Below are positions 34,305-59,021 of a stretch of DNA of 64,000 nt, piece by piece. This DNA is from Silvibacterium acidisoli (GTDB lineage: Bacteria; Acidobacteriota; Terriglobia; Terriglobales; Acidobacteriaceae). Within the stretch, counting starts at the first letter, position 1. Every line of letters begins with the position of its first letter. The stretch spans positions 744,001 through 808,000 of the forward strand of contig CP085323.1 of assembly GCA_022870745.1 (NCBI GenBank), given 5' to 3'. The notes under the pieces are model-generated. The model was not told the DNA's origin. It saw only the letters and a list, made by a program, of their open reading frames with translations, and searched no databases. The position numbers and the translations under genes are program-made.

Positions 34305-35936
34305 TTACTTCTTCAGCTTCAGGTAGCGCGTAATCAACTCGTTGGTTGAGGCGTCGTGCTTCAGGCCTTCACCGTTCTTCTCGAGCTCGCCGATGATCTT
34401 CTTGGCCAGCACCTTGCCCAGTTCCACGCCCCACTGGTCGAACGAATCGATCTGCCAGATGATGCCCTGCACGAAAACACTGTGCTCATACAGAGCCACC
34501 AGCTTGCCGAGCGCTTCCGGGGTCAGGTTTTCCAGCAGCAGCGTGCTGCTCGGGCGGTTGCCCTCGAAGACGCGGTGCGGAACCAGGTCTGCCGCCGTTC
34601 CCTCGGCCGCAACCTCTTCGGCAGTCTTGCCGAAAGCCAGGGCCTCGGCCTGCGCGAAGACGTTCGCCATCAGGAAGTCGTGGTGCTCGCCGAGCGGGTT
34701 CAGCGTCTTGGCAAAGCCGATGAAGTCGCACGGAATCAGGTGCGTTCCCTGGTGAATGAGCTGGTAGAACGAGTGCTGGCCGTTCGTGCCGGGCTCGCCC
34801 CAGAAGATCGGGCCGGTCTCGTAGTTCACCTTCGCGCCGGAAAGCGTCACGTGCTTGCCGTTGCTCTCCATCGTCAGCTGCTGCAGGTAGGCCGGGAAGC
34901 GCTTCAGGTACTGGTCATAGGGCAGAACCGCAACCGTCTGCGCGTCGAAGAAATCGGCGTACCAGACGGTCAGTAGGCCCATCAGCACGGGCAGGTTCTT
35001 GTCAAAAGAAGTGTTCCGGAAGTGCTGGTCCATCGAGTGGAAACCGGCCAGCAGCTTCTTGAAGTTGTCCGGACCGATGGCCAGCATGGTCGAAAGACCG
35101 ATCGCCGAATCCATCGAGTAGCGGCCGCCGACCCAGTCCCAGAATCCGAACATGTTGGCGGTGTCGATGCCGAACTTGGTGACTTCCTTCTCCGCGGTCG
35201 AGACGGCTACAAAGTGCTTGGCAATCGCCTTCTCGTCCTTCAGCTTGGCCAGCGTCCACGAGCGCGCGGTGTGCGCGTTGGTCATGGTCTCGAGCGTGGT
35301 GAAGGTCTTCGACGCGATGATGAACAGCGTCTCTTCAGGATCGAGATCGATGGTGGCTTCGGCAAAGTCGGTGCCGTCGATGTTCGAGACGAAGCGGAAA
35401 GTCAGGTTGCGCTGCGAATAGTGCTTCAGCGCCTCGTAAGCCATGACCGGACCAAGATCCGAACCGCCGATGCCGATGTTGATGACATTCTTGATCGGCT
35501 TGCCGGTGAAGCCCTTCCACTCGCCCGAGCGGATGCGGTCCGAGAAGGCCGCCATCGCGTCGAGAACCTTATGCACTTCGGGAACGACATCTTCGCCATC
35601 GACCAGGACCTTGGCGCTCTTCGGAGCACGCAGGGCGGTGTGCAGCACGGCGCGGTTCTCGGTGATGTTGATCTTCTCGCCGGTGAACATGGCCTCGATG
35701 TGCGACTTCAGGCCGCTCTCTTCGGCAAGCTGCAGCAATAGCTTGATAGTTTCATCGGTGATGCGGTGCTTGGAGTAGTCGAAGTAGATGCCTTCGGCAT
35801 CGACGGCAAGGCGCGTGCCGCGCTCCGGGTCAACGGCGAACAGTTCGCGCAGATGCTTGGGCTTGATGGATTCTGCATGCGATTCGAGTGCCTTCCAAGC
35901 GGAAAGCTGCGTCAAGGGGGTAGCGGTCTTGCTCAT
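34305..35936 (-). CDS. pgi: Glucose-6-phosphate isomerase
   Basis: A 543-residue protein, the normal size for the long PGI type. It shows [48 protein letters not shown] and [13 protein letters not shown], the substrate and catalytic blocks of this family. It interconverts glucose-6-P and fructose-6-P, which would feed the GDP-mannose genes at 41-44 kb. Its own terminator follows, so it is probably transcribed alone. Confidence 0.95.
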
Positions 35937-36072
35937 AGAGTGCTCTCTTCTCCTTCGTGACTCAGTCTCTTAGATTCTTTCACAACCGCCGGGGGTCACA
36001 CCGAAGCTTGAAAAGCTGGTTATTTTGCGCAGGGATCACGGTGAGCAGCAGAAAACCGTGTGACGAAAAACT

Positions 36073-36111
36073 GGGTGCCCCATCCATGACAGGTTCATCG
36101 TCATGGGTGGG
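36073..36111 (+). repeat. REP-like palindrome A
   Basis: GGGTGCCCCATCC leads into a hairpin whose arms end CCATGAC (36084-36090) and GTCATGG (36100-36106), with one T-G mismatch in the outer stem. The same 39-base unit recurs as copies B to I. It is paired with copy B in inverted orientation 25 bases away, downstream of the membrane-protein gene 36228-37112 and upstream of pgi. Confidence 0.85.
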
Positions 36112-36136
36112 TTCTGTATCTCCCCAAACATCCAAT

Positions 36137-36175
36137 CCCACCCATGACCAAAAGACGGTCATGGATGGGGCACCC
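36137..36175 (-). repeat. REP-like palindrome B
   Basis: The inverted copy of A, ending in GGGGCACCC, with stem arms CCATGAC (36142-36148) and GTCATGG (36158-36164). A and B together form a BIME-like inverted pair. Confidence 0.85.
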
Positions 36176-36227
36176 GCACCCAACACCCGACAGAAAATAT
36201 CGATTCCAAAGACTTTTCGCTAAATTA

Positions 36228-37112
36228 CTATCGGGCTTTAGGCATTACTATCAAGGTGGTTTCCTCGCCCCATTCAGCAGATTTCGGGCTGGCTCTCAAT
36301 TGAGGCTTGAGATTGGCTGCCGTTAAGCAGTTCACTAATTCTGTCACGGTGGAGCTTCCTTGGAGCGCTGGCACTACTGCGAGGACCAGACCATAGCTGG
36401 GTAAATCAAGGTAACTACTTAAAAGAGCTTGCCTCTCTACCTTCCAACCACCGGCTTCAAGAGACTGTGAGATCAGTGCTGCGTAATGCTGGGCCTCTGA
36501 ATCACCACCAACTGCAACATTCACGCTTAAGTGAGGCGTCCGTTTAGCATAATCAATAAGCGCTTGCCGTTGTGCAAGACTCAACTGCCTCGGCTCATTA
36601 GCCTCGCTGATCAATCTCAATGCCTGCTGTTTAGCAAAAGCTTCAATTTGTGGTTGCAGGTTTGAGATTGCTTTCGCCGTCATTGCCGACGTTTCATCTC
36701 GAAGCTCCGGCGCCTGCTCGGTCAGGTGTTTTGTAATCGCCGATGCGACCTGCTTGTTGACCGCATTTGCAATCTGGTCCGCCGCATGTTCTCGAACGGC
36801 ATATTGGACAGCAGTATCAATATTTTTTTGCGTAAGCTCATCGGCGAGTCGTTCCTTCACCACATCTGTTGCCGTCTGAACAGCGACGTGTTTGAGATTC
36901 AAGTAGCCGATCCAACCGACACAGGAAAAAAGCAGGACGAAGCCGGCCAACGGAATGCTCAATGCCTTCAGAGCACGGTTATGCAAACGCTCAATCGAAT
37001 CTATTTCGTCTTTAGCAACGCGACGCGCAAACTCAAGCGACTTCTGAAGCGAATCATCGTTGCAAGCTATAGATTTTTCTGCGATCTCGTTCCGCCCTGT
37101 TTCGTTTTCCAT
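36228..37112 (-). CDS. Membrane coiled-coil protein with C-terminal sensor-like domain
   Basis: A 294-residue protein with a membrane segment near residues 48-72 (SIPLAGFVLLFSCVGWIGYL). Residues 75-165 are long charged helices (ADQIANAVNKQVASAITKHL). The C-terminal part (VNVAVGGDSEAQHYAALIS and QSLEAGGWKVERQALL) is an alpha/beta domain also found at the end of other bacterial membrane coiled-coil proteins; its role is not known to me. The gene is more AT-rich than its neighbours and lies in a REP-bordered island, so it is probably acquired. Confidence 0.6.
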   Translation of the reverse strand: MENETGRNEIAEKSIACNDDSLQKSLEFARRVAKDEIDSIERLHNRALKALSIPLAGFVLLFSCVGWIGYLNLKHVAVQTATDVVKERLADELTQKNIDTAVQYAVREHAADQIANAVNKQVASAITKHLTEQAPELRDETSAMTAKAISNLQPQIEAFAKQQALRLISEANEPRQLSLAQRQALIDYAKRTPHLSVNVAVGGDSEAQHYAALISQSLEAGGWKVERQALLSSYLDLPSYGLVLAVVPALQGSSTVTELVNCLTAANLKPQLRASPKSAEWGEETTLIVMPKAR

Positions 37113-37229
37113 AAAGATTCTACGAGGACACTCATCACAATACCGCTCGCGGCAGTTGCGATTTAAGGTGAATAAGATTGTGAACTTATCCCAGCCCGAA
37201 CATGTGAAACTTGCACTTAATTGAGATAG

Positions 37230-37493
37230 TTAACCATCTAACTTATAACTAGACGAATGCCCCCGTTGAGCTCTATGATCAGCATCTAGAATCGCCTGAA
37301 GTTCTTCTACACATTGCTGTTCAGTGGTGCGTGAACCATATATACGGTGCGGGCCCAAAGCAAATCTCTCGCCACAAACATCGCAAACGACAATTCCCCA
37401 TGTATTATGCTCTGGAGCATGAACGCCCTCTTGATCGAGCTTGATCGCTACAGGCGAAATCGCATTCACTTCTTCCTTGTAAGGTTCAGTCAT
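37230..37493 (-). CDS. Small CxxC protein, unknown
   Basis: An 87-residue protein with a single CDVCGERF segment, suggesting a metal- or thiol-type half-site, and a following helix region with RTTEQQCVEELQAILD. It follows the 84-residue gene by two bases on the same strand. No family was recognised. Both sit in the AT-richer island. Confidence 0.5.
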   Translation of the reverse strand: MTEPYKEEVNAISPVAIKLDQEGVHAPEHNTWGIVVCDVCGERFALGPHRIYGSRTTEQQCVEELQAILDADHRAQRGHSSSYKLDG

Positions 37494-37495
37494 AA

Positions 37496-37750
37496 TTAGA
37501 CCTTCTTAAAAATAAAGGTGATGTGTTCGCTTGGATCCGTTGTTTTGTGACGGCTACCATCTGGCTGCGCAACGTTGAGACCCACTGTGCCGGACGGAAA
37601 GCATCCGCATAGTTCCCATCCTTTTTCACCTGCACTTTCGAAAAATTCGTGAAACCCGCCATAGCATCCGTCCATCGGGGCCTTAACCTCAGAATCAACT
37701 GTTCCTGTCCATCTGTCATATGTTGCGATTCCATATTGCACTTTGGCCAT
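37496..37750 (-). CDS. Small protein with DUF4177-like C-terminus
   Basis: An 84-residue protein with a strong AGGAGAG ribosome site six bases before ATG 37750. The segment FFESAGEKGWELCGCFPSG and the end EHITFIFKKV follow the pattern of DUF4177-type small domains. An overlapping longer frame (37486-37893) is in another phase and reads into REP C, so I reject it. The function is unknown. It is the upstream member of a two-gene unit with 37230-37493. Confidence 0.6.
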   Translation of the reverse strand: MAKVQYGIATYDRWTGTVDSEVKAPMDGCYGGFHEFFESAGEKGWELCGCFPSGTVGLNVAQPDGSRHKTTDPSEHITFIFKKV

Positions 37751-37816
37751 TGCAGCTCTCCTACGTGGAAGTAAAGCATGGAAATTGCTGTGGATAAGCT
37801 AAACATGAGGTTGCCC

Positions 37817-37855
37817 GGGTGCCCCATCCATGACAGCTTCATCGTCATGGGTGGG
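37817..37855 (+). repeat. REP-like palindrome C, overlaps RAYT stop
   Basis: The same 39-base unit in the same sense as A. The last codons of the RAYT gene, including its TGA, lie inside this copy. Confidence 0.9.
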
Positions 37856-38360
37856 TTTCCACCGTTGCACGAGACCTCGTTCGGAGAGTCCATTCTGACT
37901 CAATCTCGACACGTCCTGCCTCTCCCGTAAAGTAATGGCGATAACTCGACCACGGCCAGTCTTGTGGCTTTGCGACGAGCCCGCGCTTGACCGGGTTGCG
38001 ATGGATATACTTCAGCTTCTCAGTGAACTTCTGGTGGCTGTAGACGTTGAAGTCGTAATACCGCCTCTGCCAGAAGCTTCCTCCGTCCAGCCCGCTAAGC
38101 TTCGAGACCTCTGTCTTCAAAGCACCAATGGTCAAAGCTAGAGAAAGCTTTTCGGGCTCCGAAAGAAGCAGGTGGACATGCTCAGGCATGAGCACATAAC
38201 CGAAGATACAGAAACGATGCCGCTGCCTCAGGCGTTCAAGGATTTCTTCAAACTGGGTGCGGAGCCTGTCGTTGTCCAGAAGCGGTTGGCGGTGGAAGCA
38301 ACTGAAGGTGATGAAGTGAAGCTGTCCGCTCTCCTGATAGCGCTTCAGGTTCGGAGGCAT
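37845..38360 (-). CDS. REP-associated tyrosine transposase (RAYT, TnpA_REP family)
   Basis: A 171-residue Y1 transposase, normal length for RAYTs. The HUH pair is H61-V62-H63 in MPEHVHLLL and the catalytic Tyr is Y118 in KLKYIHRNPVKRG. WPWSSYRHYFTGE near the C-terminus is the family hallmark. It would nick and join single-stranded REP hairpins. Its gene lies between inverted REP copies C and D: D begins 20 bases upstream of the ATG, and the stop codon is inside C. A fragment of a second copy lies at 39.5 kb. All catalytic residues are present, so it is probably active. Confidence 0.92.
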   Translation of the reverse strand: MPPNLKRYQESGQLHFITFSCFHRQPLLDNDRLRTQFEEILERLRQRHRFCIFGYVLMPEHVHLLLSEPEKLSLALTIGALKTEVSKLSGLDGGSFWQRRYYDFNVYSHQKFTEKLKYIHRNPVKRGLVAKPQDWPWSSYRHYFTGEAGRVEIESEWTLRTRSRATVETHP

Positions 38361-38380
38361 TGACGACGTTCCGTGGCAGA

Positions 38381-38419
38381 CCCACCCATGACGATAAAAC
38401 TGTCATGGATGGGGCACCC
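38381..38419 (-). repeat. REP-like palindrome D, upstream of RAYT
   Basis: The 39-base unit in inverted sense, starting CCCACCCATGAC and ending GGGGCACCC. With C it brackets the RAYT gene. Both foot sequences (GGGTG) face outward from the gene. Confidence 0.9.
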
Positions 38420-38628
38420 TGCACCCTGTCATCTCGATTCGCGCTTTACGCCAGTACCACGGTAATGAACCAAGAATTTTTCATCTCAGCGAGTCCATTG
38501 CAACTCCCGCAGGCTACGAATAACCGCGTTCCCAAAATAAGGATTGAAGGCTTTTCATCCTTTTTGTAGAGTACGGAAGCTATCCTCATCACGCATGGCT
38601 GCTCAATTCTTTCTCAGAGGGTATTTCG

Positions 38629-39453
38629 ATGCGGCGACTCGGATTTGTTCTGCTGTTGATCGGGAGTTCTCTTGGCGTGGCCCAGCAACCTGCGGCCTCA
38701 ACGTTGACGGCCGAACAACAGGCACTCTTTGACGCGGCGAGGAACGATTTCAGCGAGCATCATCCTGAGCTTGCGCTGGAGAAGATGAAGCGACTCCACG
38801 CGATGATCCCTGAGAACCCTACAATCACACACGGCGCCGCGGAAACCGCCGTCGTCGTGGGCGATCGCGACTATGCCATCTCGCTGCTGAAAGAACGTAC
38901 AACATCCGATCCGGATGACACATTTGCGCTGGAGTGGCTGGCACGTGCCTACGCCGAAAGCGGCAACGGGGCCGAGCGGGATAAGACCATTGCTGCCGTG
39001 CTCAAGTTACACGAGACGAGCAGCGACGAGCAGTTCCGGCGTGCAGACAGGTTTCTCGTTGAGCGCGTGAAGCTGGCGAATGGATATTTAGACATTTACT
39101 ACGCGCTCGTGCCCTTCAGCCCGTACCACGTATACATGCTTGGACGACAGGTCGACGCCGGCAACGCACTTCTTCAGCAGATCACGCTCGAAAGCAACGA
39201 CGGCGATCAGCCAGGATTTGCGAAACAACATCCCGACATGGCAGCGAAGGGAATGCGCCGCTTTTCAATGGACACCTACAGCGCCGACCGGACTAACCCG
39301 GACGGCACAATCACCCAAACTCAGGGACTCGTCGGGTTCATAGACGGGCAGCCGAGCTATGACGACACCAAGGCTCGAATGCTGAAAGTGGCGAACGGGG
39401 CCACTCCGCCACTCGCATCAAGGAGCGGACTGCCCGTTCCGAAGTCGAACTAA
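38629..39453 (+). CDS. Exported TPR-like protein
   Basis: A 274-residue protein starting at ATG 38629 with AGAGGG seven bases upstream. A signal peptide (RLGFVLLLIGSSLGVAQ) is followed by helix-turn-helix pairs of TPR type (about residues 28-130, LTAEQQALFDAARNDFSEHH and TFALEWLARAYAESG). The C-terminal part has no recognised domain. It would mediate protein contacts in the periplasm. No operon partner is evident; the downstream region holds the RAYT remnant. Confidence 0.65.
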   Translation: MRRLGFVLLLIGSSLGVAQQPAASTLTAEQQALFDAARNDFSEHHPELALEKMKRLHAMIPENPTITHGAAETAVVVGDRDYAISLLKERTTSDPDDTFALEWLARAYAESGNGAERDKTIAAVLKLHETSSDEQFRRADRFLVERVKLANGYLDIYYALVPFSPYHVYMLGRQVDAGNALLQQITLESNDGDQPGFAKQHPDMAAKGMRRFSMDTYSADRTNPDGTITQTQGLVGFIDGQPSYDDTKARMLKVANGATPPLASRSGLPVPKSN

Positions 39454-39473
39454 AACGCAGTGAAGTACCTGCC

Positions 39474-39545
39474 GGGTGCCCATCCGTACTGACTCACCCG
39501 TAAAGTAGTGGCGGTAGCTAGACCACGGCCAGACTTCCGGCCACG
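39474..39545 (-). pseudogene. RAYT C-terminal remnant with decayed REP E
   Basis: Plus-strand bases 39498-39536 match 37925-37963 of the intact RAYT gene with about five differences over 39. Read on the minus strand they encode WPWSSYRHYFTG. The rest of the gene is missing. The start of the REP unit (GGGTGCCCATCC at 39474) lies at the 3' side, as in the intact copy, but its palindrome is lost. This is a decayed second RAYT/REP unit. Confidence 0.75.
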
Positions 39546-39590
39546 TGCCGTCTTGAATGGGCCCTCCGTGGATGATTGAGCGTGGGTGGT

Positions 39591-40850
39591 TTACTCCATG
39601 GCATAGCGGCGGCAATGTTCGAGGTAGGCAACCTCGTGCTCGCCCATCAACTCGACGACACTTCGCCACAGCCAGCTTGGAGCATCCAGCGACTTCGACC
39701 GGTTTTTCTTCAGCTCGGCCATCCATTGCTTTCGTGTTGCCGCATTCATTTGCCGTGCGTGCGCCTTGCCGACGACAGCCGCCAGGAAGCGGGCCGCGCC
39801 CACGGCCTGGGCACGTGTGAGTGTATCGATCTCGAGCTTCAGATCCTGCGGCATCAGCTCGCGCATCACCACTGGCCGGCGCAGCAAGGTCGCCGCGAGC
39901 ATCCGCTCCCCGAGGAATGGCGAGAGCGCACGGGCGCCTGTTACTACGCGGTCGGCGAAGTTCTTCGGCTGCTCGATTCCCAGCTTTGCCAGGGCCTTTT
40001 TATCCGTCGCCGGAGCGGCCGCATCCACGGCTTCCTTGATGTCGATCAGACGATACTCCCGGTCATCGCCCTTGCCCACACCCAGCAACACGGCATATCG
40101 CAGCTTGCCGAGGGACGAACAGCCCTTCATCCAGTACGCGGCATCGATGACCTTCACCTTGCGCGGCTCCCGGTCGCCCGCGAGCTTGCGAATCATTGCC
40201 AGCGTGTTCTCTTCCTCCACGAGTGCATCGACCGAGGCGCGTTCTTCATCGGTCAGCGCCCAGAATCGCTTGCCCAGCGGAATGACCGGCTCAACGCCCT
40301 CGATGCGTTCTTCTGCAAGATGCCGCCAGCGCCGCTTGAGGGACGTTCGCAACGCCACCTGGATGGGTTCGAGGTCATCGCCCTTCGCATCGTCTGCGGC
40401 AGTGGCGTGCGGACGGTGCATCGCCGCGAGATAGCCTTCCACCATGTGTTCGAGCATGTAGGCCGTGGTTGCACCGGGCAGATCGTTGCCGCGTGCCGCC
40501 GATGCCAGGGACAGGCCGAGCCGCACGATGTCGTGCGCCGGATTTCCGATCACCGTCTGATCGACGTCGCGAATCTCAACCTCGACTTTGCCTTCATGGC
40601 TTGCCACCGGCCCCAGGTTCCCGAGATGGCAGTCGCCACAGATCCAGACCGGCGGCCCATCAGGCACAAGGTGGCTATGATCGCGCAGCAGCCATTCATA
40701 GAACTTCACCGTGCTTCCGCGAACATACCGGTGCGCGCTCTGCGCCATCTTGGTGCGCTGCGTATGCTGTAGTACCGCGCTGCGCTCCGTGTGCGGTACG
40801 CCATTTGCCTGCTTCTTCCGGGCAGGTCCTGGTTTCTTCTGTTGAGACAT
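39591..40850 (-). CDS. DUF2252 family protein
   Basis: A 419-residue protein with VWICGDCHLGNLG, the aminoglycoside-phosphotransferase-like catalytic motif of DUF2252, and VEIRDVDQTVIGNPAHDIVRLG after it. The N-terminus is basic (QQKKPGPARKKQ). The family has a kinase-like fold, but its substrate is not known. The gene is alone; the RAYT remnant lies 46 bases past its stop, and the manB terminator lies upstream. Confidence 0.8.
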   Translation of the reverse strand: MSQQKKPGPARKKQANGVPHTERSAVLQHTQRTKMAQSAHRYVRGSTVKFYEWLLRDHSHLVPDGPPVWICGDCHLGNLGPVASHEGKVEVEIRDVDQTVIGNPAHDIVRLGLSLASAARGNDLPGATTAYMLEHMVEGYLAAMHRPHATAADDAKGDDLEPIQVALRTSLKRRWRHLAEERIEGVEPVIPLGKRFWALTDEERASVDALVEEENTLAMIRKLAGDREPRKVKVIDAAYWMKGCSSLGKLRYAVLLGVGKGDDREYRLIDIKEAVDAAAPATDKKALAKLGIEQPKNFADRVVTGARALSPFLGERMLAATLLRRPVVMRELMPQDLKLEIDTLTRAQAVGAARFLAAVVGKAHARQMNAATRKQWMAELKKNRSKSLDAPSWLWRSVVELMGEHEVAYLEHCRRYAME

Positions 40851-40914
40851 AAGAGTTTATGAGACGAGCAGAATCCGAATGCAGTTGCCATGATCGCATC
40901 GAGCGAGCAAAGCG

Positions 40915-40947
40915 AAGGCCCGGCAGGATTTTCTCCTGCCGGGCCTT
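40915..40947 (-). terminator. Terminator of the GDP-mannose operon
   Basis: AAGGCCCGGCAGGA (40915-40928) and TCCTGCCGGGCCTT (40934-40947) pair perfectly with a 5-base loop. It lies 13 bases past the manB-type stop. Confidence 0.85.
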
Positions 40948-40960
40948 TGAGTAGGGTTCT

Positions 40961-42397
40961 TTAATTCAACGAGTTCATCGCAAACTCACGCGCCGCTTCG
41001 AGCAGCTTCTCGACCGACTCCTTCGAGGTCGACTCCGAGTAGATGCGCAGCAGTGGCTCTGTGCCTGAGGCGCGCAGCAGCAGCCAGGTCTTTGCCGCGT
41101 TCGGCTTCGACTTCGCTTCCGGGTTGTCGAGATAAAACTTGATGCCGTCGAGCGTTTCGACCTTCTGGACTGCCATGCCTCCGATCTCTTTCACGCCGGC
41201 CTTTGCCTTCGCAATGGTCGCGTTCTTGAGATCGTCGTTGATGTGCAGGTCGATGCGTCCGTACTGGTGTTCGCCGTACTTGGCCTGCAGACCGGCGACG
41301 AGCTGGCCTAGCGTCTTGCCTTCTTCGGCCATGATGTTTGCGAGCAGCAGGGCGTTGAGCAGGCCGTCGCGCTCGGGCAGGTGCTTCGAGATGCCGATGC
41401 CGCCCGACTCCTCGCCGCCGATCAGGATGTCTTCGGTCAGCATCAGGTCCACCACGTACTTGAAGCCGATACCGTGCTCGTGAATTTTGCGTCCGTAGGC
41501 AGCGCAGATGCGGTCGAGCATGCAGGTAGTGTTGAAGGCGCGCGTTACATCGCCCGGCCAGCCCTTGCGGGAGAGCAGCCACTCGAGAATCACCGAGTAG
41601 ATCTTGTGCGGATCGATGAAGTTGCCGTGCTCGTCGACTGCGCCGATGCGGTCGGCATCGCCATCGGTGACCAGGCCCGCCGCGCACTTCTCGCGGACGA
41701 CCGTGTCCTGCATCGCCTTGATGTGCGGCTCGATCGGCTCAGGATTGATATGCGGAAAGAGCGGGTTGTGCTCGGCGCGGATCTCGACGTAATCGACGCC
41801 AATCTTGTCGAAGATGGCCGCGAGGATGCCGCTGCCTGCGCCGTACATGCAGTCCACGCCAAACTTCAGTCCCGACTTCGCGATCTTGTCGAGGTCGGCA
41901 AACTTTTCGATGGCGGCGACGTAATCCGGCACAAAGTCGGTCTCGACGATCTCCGCGGGCTTGGCCGCAACCGGCAGGGGCTCACCGAGAAACGTCTCGA
42001 TCTGCCCGATGATCGCCGGGCTGCCCGATCCGCCGTAAGAGGCCTTGTACTTCACGCCGTTCCACTGGAAAGGGTTGTGGCTGGACGTGATCATCACTCC
42101 GCCTGCCGCCTTCTGCTCGCGCACCGCGAAGGAGAGCGCGGGCGTGGGCGTGACTCGGTTGGCCAGCTTGACTGGGATTCCTGCGCCAGCCAGGACCTCG
42201 GCCACCAGGCGCGCAAAGCGCGGCGAGCCGAAGCGCGTATCGTAGCCGATGCAGACACCCTGCTCCGGCTTCTCGTGTTTCAGAATGTAATGGCCGATGG
42301 CGGAAGCAGCCGCGCGAACATTCTCATAGGTAAAGTCGTCGGCGATGATTCCCCGCCAGCCGTCGGTGCCAAATTTAACCGGACTACGCTCTGCCAT
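40961..42397 (-). CDS. Phosphomannomutase/phosphoglucomutase
   Basis: I place the start at ATG 42397 (MAERSPVKFGTDGWRG). A frame extending to 42745 is antisense-type sequence inside the upstream gene. The 478-residue protein has the alpha-D-phosphohexomutase blocks: TSSHNPFQWNGVK with the active Ser, DGDADRIG for the metal, GGEESGGIG for sugar, and RASGTEPLLRIYSE for phosphate. It would make mannose-1-P (or glucose-1-P). It is the third gene of manA-manC-manB, so a mannose role is favoured. Confidence 0.85.
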   Translation of the reverse strand: MAERSPVKFGTDGWRGIIADDFTYENVRAAASAIGHYILKHEKPEQGVCIGYDTRFGSPRFARLVAEVLAGAGIPVKLANRVTPTPALSFAVREQKAAGGVMITSSHNPFQWNGVKYKASYGGSGSPAIIGQIETFLGEPLPVAAKPAEIVETDFVPDYVAAIEKFADLDKIAKSGLKFGVDCMYGAGSGILAAIFDKIGVDYVEIRAEHNPLFPHINPEPIEPHIKAMQDTVVREKCAAGLVTDGDADRIGAVDEHGNFIDPHKIYSVILEWLLSRKGWPGDVTRAFNTTCMLDRICAAYGRKIHEHGIGFKYVVDLMLTEDILIGGEESGGIGISKHLPERDGLLNALLLANIMAEEGKTLGQLVAGLQAKYGEHQYGRIDLHINDDLKNATIAKAKAGVKEIGGMAVQKVETLDGIKFYLDNPEAKSKPNAAKTWLLLRASGTEPLLRIYSESTSKESVEKLLEAAREFAMNSLN

Positions 42398-42438
42398 TTT
42401 TTTCCCAGACTCAAAAACAGAATTCTGTTTGATTTTTT

Positions 42439-43548
42439 TTAAACCAGGTCCTTGCGGCCGGACTCGATCAGTTCCTTGACCACCTTGCCCACTTCCTGCG
42501 AGTGGTTGCGCGTGGTGATGAGCAGCGCGTCGTCGGTTTCCACGACCACCAGGTCGCTTACACCGACCATGGCCACCAGCTTCTTCGGGCTGAAGACGTA
42601 GTTTCCGCGGGCGTCGAGCGCGACGCGCCCGGTGCACTCGGTCACGTTGCCGTGCTCGTCGGTGTTCGCCCTCAGGTCGTGCTGATGCTCGTAGAGCGCC
42701 GCCCATGAACCAAGGTCGTTCCAGCCGAACGATGCCGGAATGCAAAAGAGGTTAGAGCGCTGCTCGCCCTTGGCCGAACGAGGCTCAAGAATTGCATAGT
42801 CGACGCTGATGTTTTCGCACTTGGGATAGAGCTCGGCGAAAACCTTGCTGAACTCCGGAGTGCCATGCGCCGCGGCAATCTGCTCGAGCAGCGGAGCCAT
42901 CTCCGGCAGGTGCTCGCGCACGGCGTTGGCAAGCGTCTTCGCGCTCCAGATAAAGATGCCGCTGTTCCAGTGGTAATTGCCGGCGGCGACAAACTCTTCG
43001 GCGCGCTCCTGGTTCGGCTTTTCAGTAAAGCGGCGGACGCGCAGTACGCCTTCGCCGGTGGCCTCGCCGGTTTCGATGTATCCGTAGCCGGTTTCGGCAC
43101 GCGTGGGCTTGATGCCCAGCACGACCATGTTTTCTCCAGCGCCAGCCAGTTCGATTGCCTTTTCGATAGTGGCGATAAAGGCCGGTTCGTCAGAGATTAC
43201 GTGGTCGGCGGGAAACATGCCGAGCACCGCATCTGGTGCCAGCCGTTCGAGCAGGAAAGCGCCGAGCCCGGCAGCAGGAGCGGTATTGCGGGCCGCAGGC
43301 TCACAGACCACCTGCTCCTCGGGTACTTCTTCAAGCTGTCCGCAGATGGTTCCAGAGAGCAGGTCGTTGGTGATAACCCAGAAGTCTTCGGGTTGGGCAA
43401 GCGGCGCCAGGCGGTCCATTGTCCGCTGGATCATCGTCCGCTCGCCATCGAGCGCCAGCACCTGCTTGGCGCGCGCCTTGCGGCTGCGCGGCCAGAAGCG
43501 GGTTCCGCTGCCGCCCGCGAGAATAATAGGGCGAAAGTCTGCCTTCAA
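42439..43548 (-). CDS. manC: Mannose-1-phosphate guanylyltransferase
   Basis: A 369-residue protein from TTG 43548, seven bases after AGGAG. It has the nucleotidyltransferase signature LAGGSGTRFWPRSR and the later FTEKPN segment. It lacks the isomerase domain seen in long ManC proteins, consistent with a separate manA gene. It makes GDP-mannose from mannose-1-P and GTP. It lies 63 bases downstream of manA and 41 bases ahead of the mutase gene. Confidence 0.9.
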   Translation of the reverse strand: MKADFRPIILAGGSGTRFWPRSRKARAKQVLALDGERTMIQRTMDRLAPLAQPEDFWVITNDLLSGTICGQLEEVPEEQVVCEPAARNTAPAAGLGAFLLERLAPDAVLGMFPADHVISDEPAFIATIEKAIELAGAGENMVVLGIKPTRAETGYGYIETGEATGEGVLRVRRFTEKPNQERAEEFVAAGNYHWNSGIFIWSAKTLANAVREHLPEMAPLLEQIAAAHGTPEFSKVFAELYPKCENISVDYAILEPRSAKGEQRSNLFCIPASFGWNDLGSWAALYEHQHDLRANTDEHGNVTECTGRVALDARGNYVFSPKKLVAMVGVSDLVVVETDDALLITTRNHSQEVGKVVKELIESGRKDLV

Positions 43549-51106: not shown

Positions 51107-51145
51107 GGGTGCCCCATCCATGACAGGTTTACCGTCATGGATGGG
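51107..51145 (+). repeat. REP-like palindrome F
   Basis: The 39-base unit with a perfect 12-base stem (CCCATCCATGAC and GTCATGGATGGG). It sits between divergent genes. A second hairpin follows (CTCAAGCC at 51188-51195 and GGCTTGAG at 51202-51209). Confidence 0.8.
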
Positions 51146-55384: not shown

Positions 55385-55415
55385 CCCACCCAAGCCAAGC
55401 TTGGATGGGGCACCC
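55385..55415 (-). repeat. REP-like palindrome G (short loop)
   Basis: A 31-base variant with arms CCCACCCAAGC and GCTTGGATGGG and the CACCC end, inverted sense. Its flanks from about 55376 to 55475 match the flanks of copy I. Confidence 0.8.
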
Positions 55416-58692: not shown

Positions 58693-58744
58693 GCGGCTGA
58701 AGCCGTTTCTTTCCTGCCTCTTTCGGCACGGCTGAAGCCGTGCC
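58693..58744 (+). repeat. Two GGCTGAAGCC hairpins after BNR gene
   Basis: CGGCTGAAGCCG (58693-58704) is followed by TTTCTTT. A longer perfect copy, GGCACGGC and GCCGTGCC around TGAA, lies at 58725-58744. The first may act as a terminator. Both share the GGCTGAAGCC core and look like members of one repeat family. Confidence 0.6.
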
Positions 58745-58804: not shown

Positions 58805-58835
58805 GGGTGCCCCATCCGAGCTCCGCTTGGGTGGG
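58805..58835 (+). repeat. REP-like palindrome H (short loop)
   Basis: A 31-base variant with arms CCCATCCGAGC and GCTTGGGTGGG after GGGTG. It faces copy I in inverted sense 147 bases away. Confidence 0.8.
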
Positions 58836-58864
58836 GTATAACACCATACCCCATGCAAAACGCT

Positions 58865-58982: not shown

Positions 58983-59021
58983 CCCACCCAAGACGATGAG
59001 ACTGTCTTGGATGGGGCACCC
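58983..59021 (-). repeat. REP-like palindrome I
   Basis: The 39-base unit in inverted sense, with AAGAC and GTCTT inner arms. The flanks match those of copy G, including TTTTCGTGGCTG after the CACCC end. The remaining sequence to 59236 shows no gene. Confidence 0.8.

Follow-up and report, generated by a model that had tools for sequence, protein, structure and literature searches.

Is the small transposase gene at this locus, with a hairpin at each end, one half of a self-contained pair of enzyme and target repeats, as an earlier note on this DNA had claimed? The locus lies in a stretch of 64,000 nucleotides of the Silvibacterium acidisoli genome (CP085323.1, positions 744,001 to 808,000), here called the window, and the genome searched with it comprises 5,359,900 bases in one contig. 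The features on which the argument turns are the following, in window coordinates.

34305-35936: gpi (name from Pfam), one border of the 5.0-kb cargo
35937-40960, no strand: variable cargo of 5.0 kb, holding RAYT-A, a REPIN, a RAYT remnant and four or five other ORFs
36074-36174, no strand: REPIN, two type-A REPs in inverted orientation with feet outward, about 100 nt
37818-37857, plus strand: REP C, downstream of RAYT-A, foot GTGC outward, hairpin at 37823-37855
37845-38360, minus strand: RAYT-A gene, 171-aa REP-associated tyrosine transposase, ATG start, H61-V62-H63 and Y118
38379-38418, minus strand: REP D, about 20 nt upstream of the RAYT-A start codon, foot GTGC outward
39481-39573, minus strand: remnant of a second RAYT with about 33 C-terminal residues, beside a degenerate foot at about 39474
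40961-42745: pgm (name from Pfam), other border of the cargo
51108-51145, plus strand: single type-A REP
55385-55414, minus strand: REP with the same foot and stem base, short tip
58806-58836, plus strand: REP with the same foot and stem base, short tip
58983-59020, minus strand: REP with the same foot and a variant tip (CAAGAC)

The nature of the enzyme is clear from several directions. In a profile search RAYT-A matched NF047646 (REP_Tyr_transpos) with 111.9 bits, above the curated cut-off of 80, and Y1_Tnp was the sole domain found by Pfam at 1e-3. Its sole sequence match in the PDB is 4er8, E. coli TnpA_REP (6.9e-11), an entry titled 'REP associated tyrosine transposase bound to a REP hairpin'. 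The same entry is the top Foldseek match (5.7e-10, TM 0.68 by query length) of an AlphaFold model of RAYT-A that was built on 64 sequences and has a mean pLDDT of 88.6. The transposase identity assigned to the gene at the outset is thus upheld by profile, domain, sequence and fold. Its catalytic residues, an HUH motif at 61-63 and Tyr 118, also withstand alignment with 63 relatives, in which H61 never varies and 90% or more have H63 and Y118. The tyrosine motif reads Y118-IHR-N122-P123, which is the class 2 motif Y---NP as distinct from the class 1 motif Y---Q (PMC6006769, Table 1). Judged by these residues, we interpret RAYT-A as an intact REP-associated tyrosine transposase. The best identity is 64% among the 80 relatives kept of 242. 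The named ones are nearly all labelled Acidobacteria, which bears out the acidobacterial host that had been supposed. The nearest named relative (64%; L035, CAJCIP010000041.1) carries the label Verrucomicrobia; contig C41 of genome G284 has the L035 match at the same place, G284 is classed in the acidobacterial family of the window, and the label is probably wrong.

The gene is indeed bracketed by two REPs in inverted orientation. REP C and REP D form a 40-nt inverted repeat around RAYT-A with arms that are 95% complementary, and both feet are directed away from the gene. The outer ends of the unit read GGGTGCCCC (reverse complement GGGGCACCC), and the repeats consist of GGGTGCC followed by a hairpin, CCCATCCATGAC / GTCATGGGTGGG, whose fifth pair is a T-G wobble. 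Among 54 upstream REPs of acidobacterial RAYT loci the wobble recurs at stem pair 5 in 31, a strand asymmetry; the first two stem pairs are constant, the third differs in two REPs, and pairs 4 to 10 each occur as several pair types, a pattern that we read from the alignment as compensatory change. REP C holds the RAYT-A stop codon (TGA, 37845-37847), so that the last residues of the protein, THP, are encoded by the REP. Of 64 loci with matched REP pairs, 28 have the stop codon inside the downstream REP, 13 no more than 45 nt past it, 22 ahead of it and one far past it, and in 41 the RAYT frame enters the REP. That the repeat can overlap the end of the gene had been noted before (PMC2817692; '3'ov' in the legends of PMC3733652), and only the frequency of this in these loci is therefore added here.

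How far have these hairpins spread? With the 18-base foot and arm as query, the window gives six matches at up to three mismatches, against a mean of 0.08 and a maximum of one in shuffled sequence. Six further hairpins with the RAYT-A foot lie in the window at 36074(+), 36174(-), 51108(+), 55414(-), 58806(+) and 59020(-). The earlier note had seen the same palindrome at six other sites; all six carry the foot, but those at 55414 and 58806 are not copies of its 39-base unit, because they have only the foot and stem base in common with it and their tips are shorter and different. In the genome GTGCCCCATCC occurs exactly 55 times and the same pattern reversed is absent, while the 17-base foot and arm GGTGCCCCATCCATGAC gives 25 exact and 15 one-mismatch copies against none for its reversed control. 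A genome-wide count had been proposed, with few copies as the outcome that would speak against a target family; these 40 near copies leave the claim of such a family standing, although in tens of copies rather than hundreds. The type-A REPs thus share with canonical REPs a palindrome of variable sequence in many copies. When 49 stretches around REP sites were read together with the window (sites 2439429 and 4016170 left out), 103 candidate feet were found, 75 of them with a hairpin. Neighbouring REPs within 250 nt form 19 pairs, of which nine are inverted with feet outward, one is inverted with feet inward and nine are direct. Four pairs elsewhere in the genome have the size of the pair at 36074-36174 and are 77-90% identical to it over the full length. 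These five inverted pairs of about 100 nt, each of two close REPs dispersed as a unit, are REPINs by sequence, and we presume them to be mobile. One foot is shared by several tip types, among them that of RAYT-A, a short one (CCATCCAAGCTCCGCTTGGGTGG) and the GTGG type that belongs to RAYT-B. Four REPs at 1666210-1666481 stand in direct orientation at steps of 84-85 nt, a tandem cluster rather than inverted pairs.

What might the enzyme do with its hairpins? We propose that RAYT-A and its REPs are, with high likelihood, a RAYT/REP pair (REPtron). By analogy with E. coli TnpA_REP and the IS200/IS605 enzymes, RAYT-A would be an HUH nuclease with a single tyrosine and would bind the REP hairpin, in single-stranded form, through the hairpin stem and the four 5' bases GTGC. 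Y118 would cleave beside the hairpin and the DNA would then be rejoined. Where two inverted REPs serve as substrate, the enzyme may cut out, copy or recombine the short unit that they enclose, the REPIN, during its single-stranded state, for which the lagging strand is the likeliest place, and REPs would in this way be seeded through the genome. The two REPs of RAYT-A itself would be the ends of a unit with REPIN layout.

Alternatively, the whole REP-RAYT-REP unit might be an IS-like transposon that is still mobile, with the REPINs as its miniature derivatives, a reading that we regard as conceivable but unlikely. The inverted ends with outward feet that bracket RAYT-A fit such an element, as does a frame that so often runs into the REP, in the manner of a compact element. 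A second RAYT has left a remnant 1.1 kb from RAYT-A (tblastn 1.15e-7, 58%; 52 nt at 85% to RAYT-A DNA), genomes hold one to seven matching RAYTs, many of them broken or at contig ends, and none of the eight other genus genomes has a close copy of RAYT-A. Against it, the four RAYT matches of this genome, three of them above the family cut-off, are of different types, the genome has no second, near-identical RAYT-A, and neither a target duplication nor an empty site was seen. RAYT-B, at 1030199, is 52% identical to RAYT-A over 164 residues and is flanked by repeats GGTGGCCCATTCAAGCC; RAYT-C, at 1897040, is flanked by a 33-nt perfect inverted repeat with GGCACGGCTTCAGCCGTGCC; in both, the stop codon likewise lies within the downstream repeat. 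As the three RAYTs above the cut-off each have a repeat type of their own, RAYT-A with its REPs is one of several such pairs. One repeat of the RAYT-C type also lies in the window, at 58725-58744, as the perfect palindrome GGCACGGCTGAAGCCGTGCC.

The fourth match, RAYT-D at 1491605 (1491542-1492027, minus strand; L337), is below the cut-off, lacks a flanking REP and has lost the catalytic residues. It is present in nine genomes (eight of 120, and G120), and in the nine rows neither the two HUH histidines together nor the tyrosine occurs once. RAYT-D and its relatives L122 and L338-L344 have frames that look intact and are without REPs, and among ten loci RAYT-D adjoins purD in this genome only. 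From its sequence RAYT-D looks like a catalytically dead RAYT that has been retained. One further row (L345, 37%) is an ordinary RAYT, unlike RAYT-D.

The chromosomal setting was compared as well. RAYT-A lies in the interval between pgm and gpi, which in six genus loci with both genes in view is a spacer of 303-1335 nt of unrelated content; compared with nine genus genomes, window positions 35500-40900 find matches in relatives mainly at gpi. Since the interval varies with other cargo, an insertion hotspot is demonstrated here, not movement of the RAYT. A DUF2252 gene (39591-40850) is also part of this cargo. At a second REPIN, at 1480991 between two ORFs, the flanks match in relatives, but at separate places. 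In this comparison of genus species an empty site was thus found neither at RAYT-A, where the interval is variable, nor at the REPIN at 1480991, where gene order is not kept.

We return to the RAYT/REP pair and to the tag by which the enzyme would know its repeat. REPs have been defined by GT[AG]G 5' of a palindrome (PMC3686654). REP C, REP D and the other type-A REPs carry GTGC instead and fail this strict definition, and we therefore file the hairpins as REP-like, with a variant tag. To what extent is the variant a property of the group? We counted 8-mers without a preset motif in 250 nt on each side of 96 non-identical RAYT loci out of 110 acidobacterial ones. GGTGCCCC is found upstream in 62 and downstream in 55 of the 96, compared with 3 and 0 in the distal flanks and 7 and 10 on the other strand; GGTGGCCC is found in 29 and 29, compared with 2 and 2 in the distal flanks and 1 and 2 on the other strand. 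Both are top or near the top of the enriched 8-mers on either side, mostly with the foot outward. By a simple pattern, at least one GGTG[CG]CC lies near the gene in 92 of the 96 loci. The foot finder used for the remaining counts fixes pattern bases 1, 3, 4 and 6, a bias that the k-mer count alone escapes. Of 174 REPs, 143 have a C directly after GTG and 31 have a G.

It could be argued that the tag is GGTG and that the next C is the first base of the stem, in which case the variant would concern stem length and not the tag. A G does stand opposite this C in 48 of the 143 REPs, but A, T or C does so in the other 95, the type-A REPs of the window among them, and where the fourth base is G the opposite base is also G in 30 of 31, unpaired too. 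This reading has little likelihood. As the C after GTG is mostly unpaired, we count it as the fourth tag base. Past the tag the hairpin differs strongly between RAYTs, and the two REPs of one gene are alike: tips score 22.5 within their own pair, a value inflated by the selection of pairs on similarity, and 7.8 when crossed. RAYT identity is correlated with REP-tip similarity (r 0.43, reached in 0 of 2000 permutations) over 61 loci whose pairs were likewise chosen by similarity. The foot is conserved while the hairpin diverges along with its RAYT, as read from these alignments. In the wider phylum (28 loci) a scored GTG[N] pair was found in L322 only, which belongs to the same family as the window, and GTAG hairpins were seen by eye outside the family at L309, L310, L316, L331, L332 and L336. 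Two loci (L015, L030) have tandem feet, GGTGGCC then GGTGCCC, on both sides of the RAYT, that is, nested or doubled REPs with two tag types.

Another possibility is that the hairpins are kept for a role in the host, such as transcription end or mRNA stability, with the RAYT as a bystander or former mobiliser. A hairpin right at the stop codon could act on mRNA, and some genomes hold REPs in number where an A- or B-type RAYT is missing. A match to RAYT-A at 1e-25 is present in 70 of 120 family genomes, with a best identity of 61%. The pattern GGTGCCCCRTYC occurs 2150 times in the 120 (reversed, 184), with at least ten copies in 66 genomes (reversed, none). Its median is 15 in the 70 genomes with a RAYT match and 5.5 in the 50 without, uncorrected for kinship and incomplete genomes; ten genomes with a match hold three copies or fewer. 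G066, a 99% complete genome of the same genus, holds 96 copies beside RAYTs of the C- and D-type only, and G034 has 82 copies and no RAYT-A match; their REPs are either orphans or served by another RAYT. Such REPs, the ten genomes with few copies, the single RAYT-A, the absent empty site and the departure of the foot from GT[AG]G also weigh against the RAYT/REP pair. Yet the conserved foot outside the hairpin, the outward pairing, the covariation of RAYT and REP and the T-G strand asymmetry would all be without use in termination, and we consider a host role improbable. That RAYT-A is an ordinary IS200/IS605 insertion sequence is highly improbable, since, for all the shared superfamily, its match to NF033573 (33.4 bits) is below the cut-off of 55 and its motif Y-I-H-R-N-P has N, not the Q of class 1, four residues past Y118 (PMC6006769).

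If the RAYT/REP pair is accepted, which part of the enzyme might read the fourth tag base? We aligned 173 rows; 51 identical ones and 10 of types C or D had been removed beforehand, and 2 of the remaining 175 were too short. The 87 loci with matched REP pairs comprise 71 with both feet C, 15 with both G and one mixed. Residue 20 is Ser in all 71 with C; in the 15 with G it is Cys in ten, Gly in two, Thr in two and Ser in one (L220), and the mixed pair (L215) has Ser. The 86 unmatched rows give, as foot and residue, 35 without a foot, 31 C/Ser, 7 CC/Ser, 4 G/Cys, 1 G/Ala, 3 G/Ser and one each of C/Glu, CC/Asn, CG/Ser, GC/Ser and T/Ser. E. coli, with tag GTAG, has Asn19 in this column, and in the RAYT-A model residue 20 lies where the first strand (14-21) ends. 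Well-supported branches of the tree show three independent changes of the foot; residue 20 agrees in two, goes against none and is unchanged in one (sign test p 0.5). With so few events we treat the covariation of residue 20 and the fourth tag base in these sequences, although a strong pattern, as a lead. Position 107 (E. coli R104) was also considered as tag reader: Arg is found in 12 of 15 GTGG and 8 of 71 GTGC loci, and this candidate was rejected as a tree effect because none of the three independent foot changes shows it.

We tentatively suggest, as a possibility somewhat short of an even chance, that in Acidobacteriaceae the tag has moved from GT[AG]G to GTGC and that its fourth base alternates between C and G as residue 20 changes (Ser with C; Cys, Gly or Thr with G). 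If so, one side chain would decide on the REP family that a RAYT amplifies and would act as a natural switch of specificity, and several RAYT/REP populations could coexist in one genome, as here RAYT-A with GTGC and RAYT-B with GTGG. Tag reading and the origin of REP families would then be testable by single substitutions in an enzyme of 171 residues.

How does the system compare with those already known? The earlier note was right that such systems are little studied in Acidobacteria, but the kind is not new, since acidobacterial RAYT-like genes with repeats of their own were listed in 2013, when tyrosine transposases of Terriglobus, Koribacter, Acidobacterium and Granulicella were named TIRYTs (PMC3733652). 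TIRYTs and RAYT-A very probably belong to the same clade. As in RAYT-A, the inverted repeats of TIRYTs/TIRtrons are unrelated to GTAG REPs and some overlap the gene end, and one Koribacter TIRYT repeat is multicopy (PMC3733652). They are described as terminal inverted repeats, some partly self-complementary, in a text that names no GTGC foot; their commonest motif, GGGGWSAS, fits neither GGGTGCCCC nor its complement and is missing from the repeats that flank RAYT-A (PMC3733652). The C-terminal helix-turn-helix of subclass 2.1 is missing from RAYT-A as well, in which Pfam at 1e-3 found Y1_Tnp only. In the 2018 survey (PMC6006769) marginal groups a-c of TnpA_REP subclass 2.2 are GTGG-enriched and wrongly placed there, and groups a and b include four TIRYT examples; we infer that groups a or b are acidobacterial RAYTs. 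The automatic REP search of that survey, as its text has it, required GT[AG]G, and GTGC REPs were thus beyond its reach. Searches of this kind would miss most REPs beside these RAYTs, as GTGC stands on both sides in 71 of the 87 matched pairs. What is added here is the GTGC tag, which the texts of PMC3733652 and PMC6006769, figures aside, do not describe; 'RAYT' with 'GTGC' likewise retrieved no paper from the open-licence literature, figures excluded.

REPINs as described (PMC3686654) have, like the pairs found here, two inverted REPs about 100 nt apart in several related copies, but the copies here are few, five of the size type of 36074-36174. A further parallel is with RAYT/TnpA_REP, pairs of which have been known since 2010 (Nunvar 2010, PMC2817692). 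Both systems have a single-tyrosine HUH protein with Y---NP and two inverted REPs around the gene (PMC2817692; 4er8), REPs and REPINs elsewhere in the genome, and a RAYT and REP that diverge together (PMC2817692). They differ in the tag, which is GT[AG]G in RAYT/TnpA_REP and GTGC in the REPs of RAYT-A, while the RAYT-B REPs, with GTGG, fit GT[AG]G. The E. coli residues in contact with GTAG, which are W94, Q95, E100, H101 and R104 (PMC6006769), correspond to W97, Q98, D103, F104 and Y107 in RAYT-A. The unusual GTGC tag offers a way to ask how RAYT enzymes read their tag, and RAYT-A and RAYT-B of this one genome are a ready contrast for doing so on short oligonucleotides.
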